A stretch of DNA of 64,000 bases, taken from Pseudoduganella lutea (GTDB taxonomy: Bacteria > Pseudomonadota > Gammaproteobacteria > Burkholderiales > Burkholderiaceae_D). Positions 27,215 to 41,642 of this stretch are shown here, in pieces. Numbering within the stretch: the first letter of the stretch is position 1; each line of letters opens with the position of its first letter. The translations under genes were made by a program, and so were the position numbers. Below the pieces are notes generated by a model. That model did no database searches, had not been told where the DNA came from, and worked only from the letters and a program-made list of their open reading frames with translations. The stretch covers positions 248,001-312,000 of the forward strand of contig NZ_CP035913.1 of the NCBI RefSeq assembly GCF_004209755.1. The letters run 5' to 3'.

Positions 27215-28579
27215 TCAGCCCGACGCGCGCGCCAGCACGGCGGCCATGCGCGCCATCGCATCGGGTGCGATCCGCACGCGGGTGCCATCGAAGTCCGGTC
27301 CCCGCGTGGCGTCCAGGCCCATGCGCGAAGTCGTCCCGATGCCCGACGCCGACGGGTCGAGCGCGCTGCCGGGCAGGCCGTCGACGATGACGACATCGCG
27401 GTGCGGCTGCATGTGCGTGGCCATCGCCCACAGCACCTCGCTGTCGCGCGTGATGTCCACGTCGTCGTCGACCGCGACCACGGTCTTCAGGTAAGGGTCC
27501 CAGCCCAGCAGGCCAAGCATGACCTGGCGCGCCTCGCCAGGGCGGCTCTGCCGCACCGCCACGTAGGCGTGGAAGTGGGTGCCGGAACTGGGGTAATGCA
27601 CCGAGGTCACGCCGGGAAAGCGTTCGCGCAGCTTTTCCACCATCTCCGATTCGCGCGGGATGCGGCCCAGGTTCAGGTGTTCTGCCGAATTGCCGCCCAC
27701 CACATCGACCAGCACCGCGTCGCGCCGGCGCAGGATCGACTCGACGCGCAGCAGGTTGTTCGTGGAACGGTCCGACGAGTAGCCGGAAAATTCGCCGAAC
27801 GGCCCTTCCGGCACATGTGCCTCCGGGTCGATCACGCCTTCGAGCACGAACTCGGCGTGGGCCGGCACCGCGATGCCGTACTTCGGCGTGCGGACCACCT
27901 GCAGCGGCGCGCCCAGCAGGCCACCGGCCACGTGGCGCTCGTCGACGCCGAAGGGCAGCCGCGCGGCCCCGGCCAGCATGAACAGCGGATGCGCGCCGAT
28001 CACCATCGCCACCGGCAGCGGGCTGCCCCGCTCGCGGGCGATCTGCAGCAGGCGCCACAGGTGGCCCCGCGAATGCAGGCTGGTGGCGATCTCGGTGGGG
28101 CTGTGCAGCGTGGAGCGGTGATAGCTCATATTGCCCACGCCCGTGTCCGGATGCTCGGCCACGAGGATGGCATTGGTGATGTACGGCCCGCGGTCGGTGG
28201 CGAAGTGCTGCACGACGGGCACGCTGCGCAGGTCGATGTCGCCCTGCTGCACGCTGTCCGTGACCGGGCCGCTGTCGACCAGCAGCGGCGGCACCAGCCT
28301 GCGGCTGCGCGCCTGGTATTCGGCATGGATCTGCGCGGCCGGCACGCCGAGCATGCGCCCGACGCGCTCGCGCGATGCAAAGATGTTGGTGACCAGCGCC
28401 GTGTCGATGCCGCGCACGCGTTCGCACACCAGCAGCGGATGCCGGTCCTGCGCGGCAAGCTGCCACACCAGCGCGGTGACGTCTTCGCCGCCGGCCAGCT
28501 CCTCGCGCACGGCCAGCACGTCCTGCGGGTACAGTTCGCGGTACTGGCTGAGGAATTGATGGAAGTCCTGGGGGATCAT
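27215..28579 (-). CDS. UbiD-family prenylated-FMN decarboxylase
   Basis: UbiD enzymes reversibly decarboxylate aromatic or alpha,beta-unsaturated acids using prenylated FMN made by UbiX. The 454-residue protein has the family pattern: DLRSVPVVQHFATDRGPYITNAILVAEHPDTGVGNMSYHR, the acid-base loop PEGPFGEFSGYSS, and the metal/cofactor region AEHLNLGRIPRESEM. It is the last gene of the 12-gene operon, which also carries its own ubiX, so it is a catabolic UbiD and not the ubiquinone enzyme. The substrate is unknown. A GC-rich hairpin separates it from the preceding gene. Confidence 0.93.
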   Translation of the reverse strand: MIPQDFHQFLSQYRELYPQDVLAVREELAGGEDVTALVWQLAAQDRHPLLVCERVRGIDTALVTNIFASRERVGRMLGVPAAQIHAEYQARSRRLVPPLLVDSGPVTDSVQQGDIDLRSVPVVQHFATDRGPYITNAILVAEHPDTGVGNMSYHRSTLHSPTEIATSLHSRGHLWRLLQIARERGSPLPVAMVIGAHPLFMLAGAARLPFGVDERHVAGGLLGAPLQVVRTPKYGIAVPAHAEFVLEGVIDPEAHVPEGPFGEFSGYSSDRSTNNLLRVESILRRRDAVLVDVVGGNSAEHLNLGRIPRESEMVEKLRERFPGVTSVHYPSSGTHFHAYVAVRQSRPGEARQVMLGLLGWDPYLKTVVAVDDDVDITRDSEVLWAMATHMQPHRDVVIVDGLPGSALDPSASGIGTTSRMGLDATRGPDFDGTRVRIAPDAMARMAAVLARASG

Positions 28580-28602
28580 GTCTGCCCTCTTTCATTGGTT
28601 GC

Positions 28603-41160: not shown

Positions 41161-41642
41161 GACGCCTCTCCTTGATCGGCAATCTTCGCTCCGGCCATCT
41201 TCGCGGCGGCCACATGGATGGCGCGGCGGATGCGCCCGTAGGTCCCGCAGCGGCAGATGTTGCCGGACATGGCGTTGGTGATGTCGTCGTCGCCGGGTGC
41301 CGGGTTTTGCCGCAGCAGCGCGGCGGCCGACATCAGCTGGCCGGACTGGCAGTAGCCGCACTGCGGCACGTCTTCCTGCAGCCAGGCCAGCTGCAGCGGG
41401 TGCTCGCCCGTGGCGGACAAGCCTTCGATGGTGGTGATCCTGCGGCCCACGGCGGCCGATACCGGCACGCTGCACGAGCGCACCGCTTCGCCATCCAGGT
41501 GCACGGTGCAGGCACCACACAGGGCGGCGCCGCAGCCGAATTTCGTGCCGGTCAGATCGAGGTGATCGCGCAGCACCCACAGCAGCGGCGTGTCCGGCGC
41601 CACGGCCACATTCCGTTCCTCGTTGTTGACGTTCAGTCGCAT
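41157..41642 (-). CDS. molybdenum hydroxylase small [2Fe-2S] subunit (IorA-like)
   Basis: This 161-residue electron-transfer subunit carries two [2Fe-2S] clusters. The plant-type cluster is GTKFGCGAALCGACTVHLDG...RSC (Cys near 37, 42, 45, 57). The helical second cluster is PQCGYCQSGQ and GNICRCGTYGRI. It is the first gene of the operon, with its start 93 bp from the divergent LysR gene. It lacks its own signal peptide and would be exported, if at all, bound to the Tat-signalled large subunit, as known for this enzyme class. Confidence 0.95.
   Translation of the reverse strand: MRLNVNNEERNVAVAPDTPLLWVLRDHLDLTGTKFGCGAALCGACTVHLDGEAVRSCSVPVSAAVGRRITTIEGLSATGEHPLQLAWLQEDVPQCGYCQSGQLMSAAALLRQNPAPGDDDITNAMSGNICRCGTYGRIRRAIHVAAAKMAGAKIADQGEAS

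Follow-up and report, generated by a model that had tools for sequence, protein, structure and literature searches.

In the genome of Pseudoduganella lutea (GCF_004209755.1), we examined a stretch of 64,000 nucleotides from contig NZ_CP035913.1 (positions 248,001 to 312,000, forward strand), which we will call the window. At 27215-41642, the window contains a cluster of twelve genes on the minus strand. These encode a UbiD-type decarboxylase, the flavin prenyltransferase UbiX, a molybdenum hydroxylase, a COG0402 deaminase, an ABC importer, a CobW-family GTPase, and two paralogous amidohydrolases, which we will call AH2a and AH2b. In 27 other loci, AH2a-AH2b-UbiD is a fixed core, while the deaminase, the transporter, and the molybdenum enzyme are exchanged for non-orthologous versions. 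Given the sequence affinities of these proteins, we think it quite possible, if still tentative, that the cluster encodes the breakdown of pteridines (of the pterin type), in which contraction of the ring yields a purine, xanthine. A more specific proposal, which we regard as possible but doubtful, is that AH2a and AH2b are the ring-contracting pair, the tetrahydroxypteridine cycloisomerase, which is not known to have an assigned sequence, and that UbiD is a xanthine-8-carboxylate decarboxylase, in a pterin-to-purine pathway that has been repeatedly re-assembled in soil and root bacteria.

AH2a, AH2b, and UbiD form a conserved core

A search of genome contigs with the window's deaminase as the query gave 218 loci, of which we took the best 80. 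AH2b and UbiD were both present in 14 of the 80 (L003-L014, L018, and L072), and one more (L019) had a fragment of UbiD. With AH2b as the query, we found matches at 182 places in 91 plasmid records: 63 records were from Sinorhizobium, 11 were from Ensifer, and the others were from Paracoccus, Caballeronia, Cupriavidus, Burkholderia, Shinella, and three more. From the 91 records we chose 9 for variety. Four of these 9 were unannotated; L144, L149, and L151 were compared by tblastn only, and L150 was left out. L151, from Sinorhizobium meliloti 1021, was taken by accession because this is the standard laboratory strain; L143 and L151 represent two strains of S. meliloti.

AH2b is rare among sampled genomes. 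Within the order, 5 of 399 sampled genomes (including the window's own) contain it, at identities of at least 89%; among the matches listed, the AH2a partners were the only ones between 89% and 33% identity. Within the phylum, 4 of 398 sampled genomes, again including the window's own, contain it with E values of 1e-40 or better.

To compare gene order, we used tblastn with 28 query proteins against 27 loci, excluding the window. (L162 and L163, from genomes G019 and G052, were omitted because their contigs are of the same lengths as those of L005 and L006.) Fourteen of the 27 loci were found with the deaminase query, which guarantees that they have a deaminase; the other 13, found with AH2b, make a fairer sample. 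Also, six loci (L008, L011-L013, L157, and L160) end prematurely, so absences from them say little.

UbiD lies directly after AH2b, on the same strand, in all 27 loci. AH2a lies ahead of AH2b in 25 of them; the exceptions are L008, where the contig ends, and L011, where the locus starts with a partial AH2a. The block moves as a unit: its orientation with respect to the deaminase gene is reversed in L008, L014, and L018, and it is relocated in others. In the Burkholderiales loci, the AH2 proteins are 80-96% identical to the window's (80-94% for AH2a and 85-96% for AH2b). Among the 13 loci found with AH2b, all have a molybdenum hydroxylase, 11 have UbiX, 11 have the CobW GTPase, 11 have an NCS2-type permease, and 8 have a deaminase in range. 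The permeases of these 11 loci are 42-100% identical to the one from S. meliloti, and the copy in L158 is about 9 kb away on the opposite strand. Across all 27 loci, tblastn found an NCS2-type permease in 15, and the one from Comamonas matches PF00860 (Xan_ur_permease). The importers vary among the BMP, NMT1, and NCS2 types, and the molybdenum hydroxylase is either of the IorAB type, as in the window, or of the three-subunit xanthine dehydrogenase (XDH) type.

That the genes travel together, which the original prediction from the window's sequence had put forward as a check, is borne out by the 27 loci. The set recurs, in rearranged form, in Alpha- and Betaproteobacteria (classes as in NCBI taxonomy) and probably also in Gammaproteobacteria. 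In S. meliloti 1021, a root-nodule bacterium of alfalfa, it lies on pSymB. The core of the pathway is AH2a-AH2b-UbiD plus a molybdenum hydroxylase, and deamination appears to be an entry step.

In the clusters from Ensifer and Shinella, we also noticed a class II aldolase (PRK06486; L147 5386-6174 and L148 5334-6134), which might trim a pterin side chain.

The gene cluster in Pseudoduganella lutea

Families were assigned from matches to Pfam and NCBIfam. From the start of the cluster, the genes are as follows, with the divergent regulator last:

41157..41642, minus strand: 2Fe-2S subunit of an IorAB-type molybdenum hydroxylase (PF01799, E 9.9e-30; PF00111, 3.9e-8)
38920..41145, minus strand: molybdopterin-binding subunit (IorB-like) with a twin-arginine translocation (Tat)-type RR-x-FL signal (PF02738, 1.6e-31; PF20256, 2.2e-31)
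38348..38923, minus strand: UbiX flavin prenyltransferase (NF004685, 285.6 bits, cut-off 188)
37136..38332, minus strand: COG0523/CobW-family GTPase, putative metallochaperone (PF02492, 6.6e-56; PF07683, 1e-25)
35463..37139, minus strand: ABC transporter ATPase with two ABC_tran stretches (PF00005, 2.6e-43)
34382..35473, minus strand: ABC permease 1 (PF02653, 9.6e-40)
33465..34397, minus strand: ABC permease 2 (PF02653, 2.6e-33)
32300..33439, minus strand: BMP/PnrA-type solute-binding protein, AtzT-like (PF02608, 4.2e-47; 6PI5, E 1.2e-109)
30858..32282, minus strand: COG0402 deaminase of the 2PAJ type (2PAJ, E 2.8e-163; NF009059, 664.6 bits, cut-off 543)
29601..30533, minus strand: AH2a, Amidohydro_2 paralogue with SCY replacing the HxH metal motif (PF04909, 4.1e-34)
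28661..29575, minus strand: AH2b, Amidohydro_2 paralogue with HxH intact (PF04909, 3.3e-45)
27215..28579, minus strand: UbiD-type decarboxylase that uses prenylated flavin mononucleotide (prFMN) (TIGR00148, 274.5 bits, cut-off 244.85; 6H6X, 1.5e-68; 6H6V, 4.4e-68; 7P9Q, 6.7e-44)
41736..42628, plus strand: divergent LysR regulator gene, frame-shifted (PF03466, 2.7e-50)

The original prediction described twelve genes on one strand, divergent from a LysR gene and mostly joined by ATGA or longer overlaps. These families and the gene boundaries agree with the twelve genes and the divergent regulator; the statement about overlaps was too strong. Only 4 of the 11 junctions overlap (by 4, 4, 11, and 16 bases), and a fifth would overlap if the molybdopterin-binding subunit begins one ATG upstream of its called start, which is possible. 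Of the others, six have gaps of 11-81 bases, and the AH2a-AH2b-UbiD block is preceded by a 324-base gap, so there could be two transcription units. A scan of the region found no promoter-like sites, and a terminator scan found 4 terminator-like sites, compared to a mean of 7.5 in shuffled sequence. The frame shift in the LysR gene falls within the helix-turn-helix, and the same part is in one frame in four close relatives (L003-L006); it may be a true mutation or a sequence error. The prediction's "ATZ/TRZ amidohydrolases" are right for the COG0402 deaminase; the other two amidohydrolases are instead the PF04909 pair at the core of the cluster.

Elsewhere in the window, 44575-61307 contains flanking genes for polysaccharide use and others: a PL8 lyase with CBM96, a GH35, a TonB-dependent receptor, a GH88, a LacI regulator, and a phospholipase-C-like phosphoesterase. 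The region 8001-14000 has lower G+C content (54-61%, in 2-kb steps). Long reading frames are scarce in its middle part, and one frame of 419 amino acids has no match in Pfam.

AH2a has lost a metal motif that AH2b retains

Both proteins score above the gathering cut-off for PF04909 (119.1 bits for AH2a and 155.5 for AH2b; cut-off 26.4). The HxH metal motif is kept in all 15 sequences of AH2b from the loci (one is the window's own) and is missing from all 12 locus orthologues of AH2a. We aligned 178 sequences and built a tree: the two queries plus 176 database proteins (one is the window's own AH2a), drawn from the best 120 of 301 and the best 120 of 298 relatives. The 112 sequences that lack HxH (103 of which lack both histidines) form one clade, with support of 0.86; 62 have HxH and 4 are truncated. 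Every aligned locus orthologue of AH2a retains two later histidines and a late aspartate. This retention, together with conservation that is nearly that of AH2b, indicates that AH2a is not decaying. The simplest reading is that AH2a and AH2b form a heteromer with one metal-binding partner.

Nine relatives of AH2a (P0023, P0028, and seven others) have ACH at the position of SCY. In eight of these, whose pattern is known, the late aspartate is replaced by serine, so the former metal site has changed further. Among the matches listed, relatives of AH2b are also found in actinobacteria (Streptomyces and Nocardia).

The predicted structures are confident (mean predicted local distance difference test scores of 86.0 for AH2a and 86.5 for AH2b), and a fold search with either one returned a single broad family of decarboxylases, hydratases, and uncharacterized proteins. 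(The VIA comparison was run for AH2b only.) Compared to ACMSD-type members of PF04909, such as 2,6-dihydroxybenzoate decarboxylase, iso-orotate decarboxylase, and LigJ, the AH2 proteins are 14-21% identical in these alignments, and they differ in being a system of two paralogues, one without HxH.

UbiD resembles decarboxylases of five-membered heteroaromatic rings

Papers are cited below by their PubMed Central identifiers, and what we report from them is from excerpts of their texts. The closest solved relatives of the window's UbiD are HmfF and AnInD, which decarboxylate furan-2,5-dicarboxylic acid and indole-3-carboxylate, respectively. Arg155 and Glu263 of UbiD align with the catalytic Arg155 and Glu266 of AnInD. 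PtHmfF and AnInD both act on five-membered heteroaromatic rings (PMC8988006). Unlike in those systems, we recognized no furan or indole pathway genes in the cluster, and Asp169 of AnInD, which contacts the indole NH (PMC8988006), is a histidine in the window's UbiD. We therefore rejected a hydroxymethylfurfural or furoate pathway, since none of the families assigned to the twelve genes is a recognized partner in one, and, on account of the histidine, indole-3-carboxylate as the substrate.

Because AH2b is always directly before UbiD, the product of the AH2 pair may be the substrate of UbiD. More broadly, the fixed block suggests that a carboxylate arises as an intermediate and immediately loses its carboxyl group. 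The original prediction supposed that the imported compound was itself a carboxylate, which is not needed, and its series of reactions had no step for the AH2 pair, even though this is the most conserved part of the cluster.

The deaminase, importer, and molybdenum hydroxylase

The best solved match to the window's deaminase is 2PAJ, with 54.9% identity in an alignment of 466 positions; the figure for 3HPA, which is like 8-oxoguanine deaminase, is 35.5% (E values of 2.8e-163 and 4.2e-66, respectively). At 257 positions that separate 2PAJ from 3HPA, it matches 2PAJ 118 times and 3HPA 30 times. Also, its score for the 8-oxoguanine deaminase family (NF006055, 362.6 bits) is below the curated cut-off of 532, so we rejected that activity. 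Of five catalytic stretches, two (THHHLFQS and GVDGAASNE) are identical to those of 2PAJ and the other three differ in part.

2PAJ is labeled in the PDB as a "putative cytosine/guanine deaminase", and we take it to be the enzyme reported as an isoxanthopterin deaminase by Hall et al. 2010. The enzymes from that report are said to deaminate isoxanthopterin and pterin-6-carboxylate (PMC5270733), and the product from isoxanthopterin is given as violapterin (PMC11121863).

In a tree of deaminases, 2PAJ groups with L044 and Pseudomonas loci, and the window's deaminase belongs to a separate clade of 18 members (support 0.986), which includes 14 of the 17 cluster-linked deaminases and four others. 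The cluster-linked deaminases of L072, L149, and L161 are outside the clade, so such deaminases seem to have joined the core on more than one occasion.

In most of L023-L082, the 2PAJ-type deaminase is outside the cluster, often beside NMT1-type ABC transporters. Those of these loci that we tested with Pfam also contain Rieske or 2-oxoglutarate oxygenases, FAD-binding proteins, and creatininase or L-PSP proteins. Perhaps these belong to a different pathway for pterins or N-heterocycles in Acinetobacter, Pseudomonas, and enterobacteria.

The solute-binding protein is similar to AtzT (6PI5), a purine and 2-hydroxyatrazine binder (164 of 333 residues are identical). AtzT binds guanine at 110 nM and also binds ammeline and hydroxyatrazine; its contacts with guanine are Tyr45, Ser97, Phe98, Glu165, Trp194, Asn218, and Asn220 (PMC6834077). 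The window's protein, like those from the nine Burkholderiales loci with this type of BMP protein, retains four of these seven (Ser97, Phe98, Glu165, and Trp194). In the window, the other three are replaced (Tyr45 by Trp, Asn218 by Asp, and Asn220 by Ser); across all ten proteins, Tyr45 is Trp, Asn220 is Ser, and position 218 is Asp or Ala. By sequence comparison, then, the window's protein has part of a guanine pocket that is altered elsewhere.

IorAB-type hydroxylases have a separate 2Fe-2S subunit and a molybdenum-cofactor subunit with a Tat-like signal, with no flavin adenine dinucleotide (FAD) subunit beside them, and the window's enzyme fits this description. The RR-x-FL motif is found in the window's large subunit and in all 6 of the loci with IorB-type enzymes, and in none of the 17 large subunits of the three-subunit XDH type. 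In S. meliloti, the cluster's hydroxylase is XdhA-like (NF043082, 667.5 bits, under its cut-off of 780). SMb20132, which a published regulon table lists as probably a dehydrogenase (EC 1.17.1.4), might belong to the AH2 locus, but that is a guess. Xanthine oxidase converts lumazine to violapterin (PMC9966888).

Together, three affinities (of the deaminase; of the binding protein; and of the NCS2 permeases and XDH-type hydroxylases) seem to point to a fused 2-amino-4-oxo ring as the substrate. In the original interpretation, an N-heteroaromatic compound, with pterins among the options, was imported, deaminated, hydroxylated on its ring, and decarboxylated; these families and the cluster comparison support that type of pathway. 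The parts that we would change are the imported carboxylate, the extent of the overlaps, and the omission of the AH2 pair.

A proposed pathway from pterins to xanthine

In the 1960s, McNutt reportedly found that bacteria break down pterins by isomerizing tetrahydroxypteridine to xanthine-8-carboxylate. The enzyme, tetrahydroxypteridine cycloisomerase, is EC 5.5.1.3; we know of no gene or sequence that has been assigned to it. The route consists of deamination, hydroxylation, and ring contraction to xanthine-8-carboxylate, and the cluster offers a candidate gene or pair for each step. A check of the formulas confirms that tetrahydroxypteridine and xanthine-8-carboxylate are isomers.

From the gene content, conservation, adjacency, family affinities, and loss or retention of motifs that we observed, we infer the substrate, the cellular location, the order of steps, and each of the reactions. 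The Tat-exported molybdenum hydroxylase would act in the periplasm, oxidizing C6 or C7 of a pterin, and the AtzT-like importer would take up the 2-amino-4-oxo heterocycle. The 2PAJ-type deaminase would then remove the 2-amino group, which would convert leucopterin-type intermediates to 2,4,6,7-tetrahydroxypteridine. AH2b, with AH2a as its metal-motif-less partner, would open the lactam, and the ring would be reclosed as xanthine-8-carboxylate. The net reaction would be lactam hydrolysis and re-closure, which should be within reach of amidohydrolase-type enzymes. UbiD, with prFMN from UbiX, would convert xanthine-8-carboxylate to xanthine and CO2. The CobW GTPase may deliver metal to the amidohydrolases. 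Both the adjacency of AH2b and UbiD and the similarity of UbiD to HmfF and AnInD fit this route.

Xanthine dehydrogenase would then take the xanthine into the urate route, for which the genes are outside the cluster: elsewhere, the P. lutea genome encodes a true xanthine dehydrogenase, which scores 1262.7 bits (cut-off 849.5), and a 2-oxo-4-hydroxy-4-carboxy-5-ureidoimidazoline decarboxylase. Given those locations, and since plain purine degradation requires no UbiD, we rejected it as the function of the cluster.

Evidence against the proposal and alternative explanations

Several observations weigh against a pterin-to-xanthine pathway. The clade of cluster deaminases is apart from 2PAJ, and the nearest kin of 2PAJ (L044 and L020-L022) have different gene neighborhoods and lack the AH2-UbiD block, so the cluster enzymes may act on another substrate. 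In Rhizobiaceae and Rhodobacterales (Alphaproteobacteria), the clusters carry a cytosine-deaminase-like enzyme instead, and the BMP proteins of rhizobia do not have the AtzT-like pocket. There is no deaminase in range in five of the 27 loci (L144 and L157-L160); all four of the genomes among these that we searched (G234, G061, G217, and G373) encode a 2PAJ-type deaminase elsewhere (49-57% identity), which in G373 is about 13 kb away. (The fifth locus is from Cupriavidus.) No gene is named for folate or pterin metabolism in the five annotated neighborhoods. The AH2 models group with ACMSD-type decarboxylases and with hydratases, and they are nearer to the former than to hydrolases of cyclic amides, so AH2b could be a decarboxylase in its own right. 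Finally, HudA, a member of the UbiD family, gave 0% conversion of imidazole-2-carboxylate and 1.3% of imidazole-4-carboxylate (PMC7976604), so decarboxylation at C8 of xanthine would be chemically demanding.

The last two points could also be explained by a pteridine pathway with another order of steps, which we consider unlikely: UbiD would act first, on pterin- or lumazine-6-carboxylate from the breakdown of folate, and AH2b would decarboxylate or open a later intermediate. The AH2 models rank among decarboxylases for ACMS, dihydroxybenzoate, 5-carboxyvanillate, and iso-orotate, which would suit such a role, as would the inactivity of HudA on imidazole-2-carboxylate (PMC7976604). The enzymes of the 2PAJ report reportedly accept pterin-6-carboxylate (PMC5270733), and lumazine-6-carboxylic acid is a candidate intermediate in folate degradation (PMC9513972). 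However, the invariant adjacency of AH2b and UbiD suggests that UbiD consumes an AH2 product, and the closest solved relatives of UbiD act on five-membered rings. Another alternative is catabolism of 7-deazaguanines, by 2-deamination, molybdenum-dependent hydroxylation of the pyrrole ring, UbiD acting on 7-carboxy-7-deazaguanine, and opening of the lactam by the AH2 pair. The deaminase and the partly guanine-like pocket are compatible with this, and an indole-3-carboxylate decarboxylase is the second distinct enzyme among the solved matches to UbiD. But the aspartate that contacts the indole NH is a histidine here, the deaminase's affinity is to a pteridine enzyme, and no gene in the five annotated neighborhoods is named for queuosine or deazapurines, so we think that catabolism of 7-deazaguanines is very unlikely.

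A broader alternative, which is the original prediction in its general form and has a modest chance of being correct, is that the substrate is some other N-heterocycle: another purine, or a carboxylate of a pyridine, triazine, or pyrimidine. Every family in the cluster is broad, ammeline and hydroxyatrazine are also ligands of AtzT (PMC6834077), and the alphaproteobacterial deaminase is cytosine-deaminase-like. On the other hand, the deaminase, the binding protein, the permease, and the XDH-type enzymes together favor fused 2-amino-4-oxo rings. The pyridine pathways known to us include a ring-cleaving oxygenase, which is absent among the twelve genes by Pfam and NCBIfam. That unrelated operons lie side by side by chance is scarcely credible: the 324-base gap does set AH2a-AH2b-UbiD apart, but the same set recurs, rearranged, in two proteobacterial classes, and we exclude chance because the set is conserved and syntenic in relatives.

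Relation to known pterin catabolism

The original prediction knew of no described pathway with exactly this set of genes, and in the open-licence literature, we found no paper that describes the gene set and none that treats EC 5.5.1.3 as an orphan enzyme. In the same literature, "xanthine-8-carboxylate" turned up only in a paper on untargeted urine metabolomics (PMC5941619). A related described system is folate degradation by Variovorax sp. F1, a member of the Comamonadaceae (PMC9513972, which cites McNutt's 1963 folate paper). It likewise involves a pterin deaminase, but of the Arad3529 type, unlike the window's 2PAJ type. Its named products stop at deaminopteroic acid, with later catabolism only presumed, and the excerpted text does not mention UbiD, decarboxylases, xanthine, or any term beginning with molybd-.

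The pathway should be testable in Sinorhizobium meliloti 1021, since the set is present on its pSymB. Whatever the substrate, the cluster contains a conserved pair of amidohydrolase paralogues, one of which lacks the metal motif. Pterins are widespread, as insect pigments and as debris from folate and cofactors, and to our knowledge no genes have been assigned to opening or contracting the pterin ring. If the proposed pathway from pterins to xanthine is correct, then the cluster would provide candidate genes for a ring contraction reportedly known since the 1960s, and xanthine-8-carboxylate would possibly represent a new class of heteroaromatic substrate among the prFMN-dependent decarboxylases.

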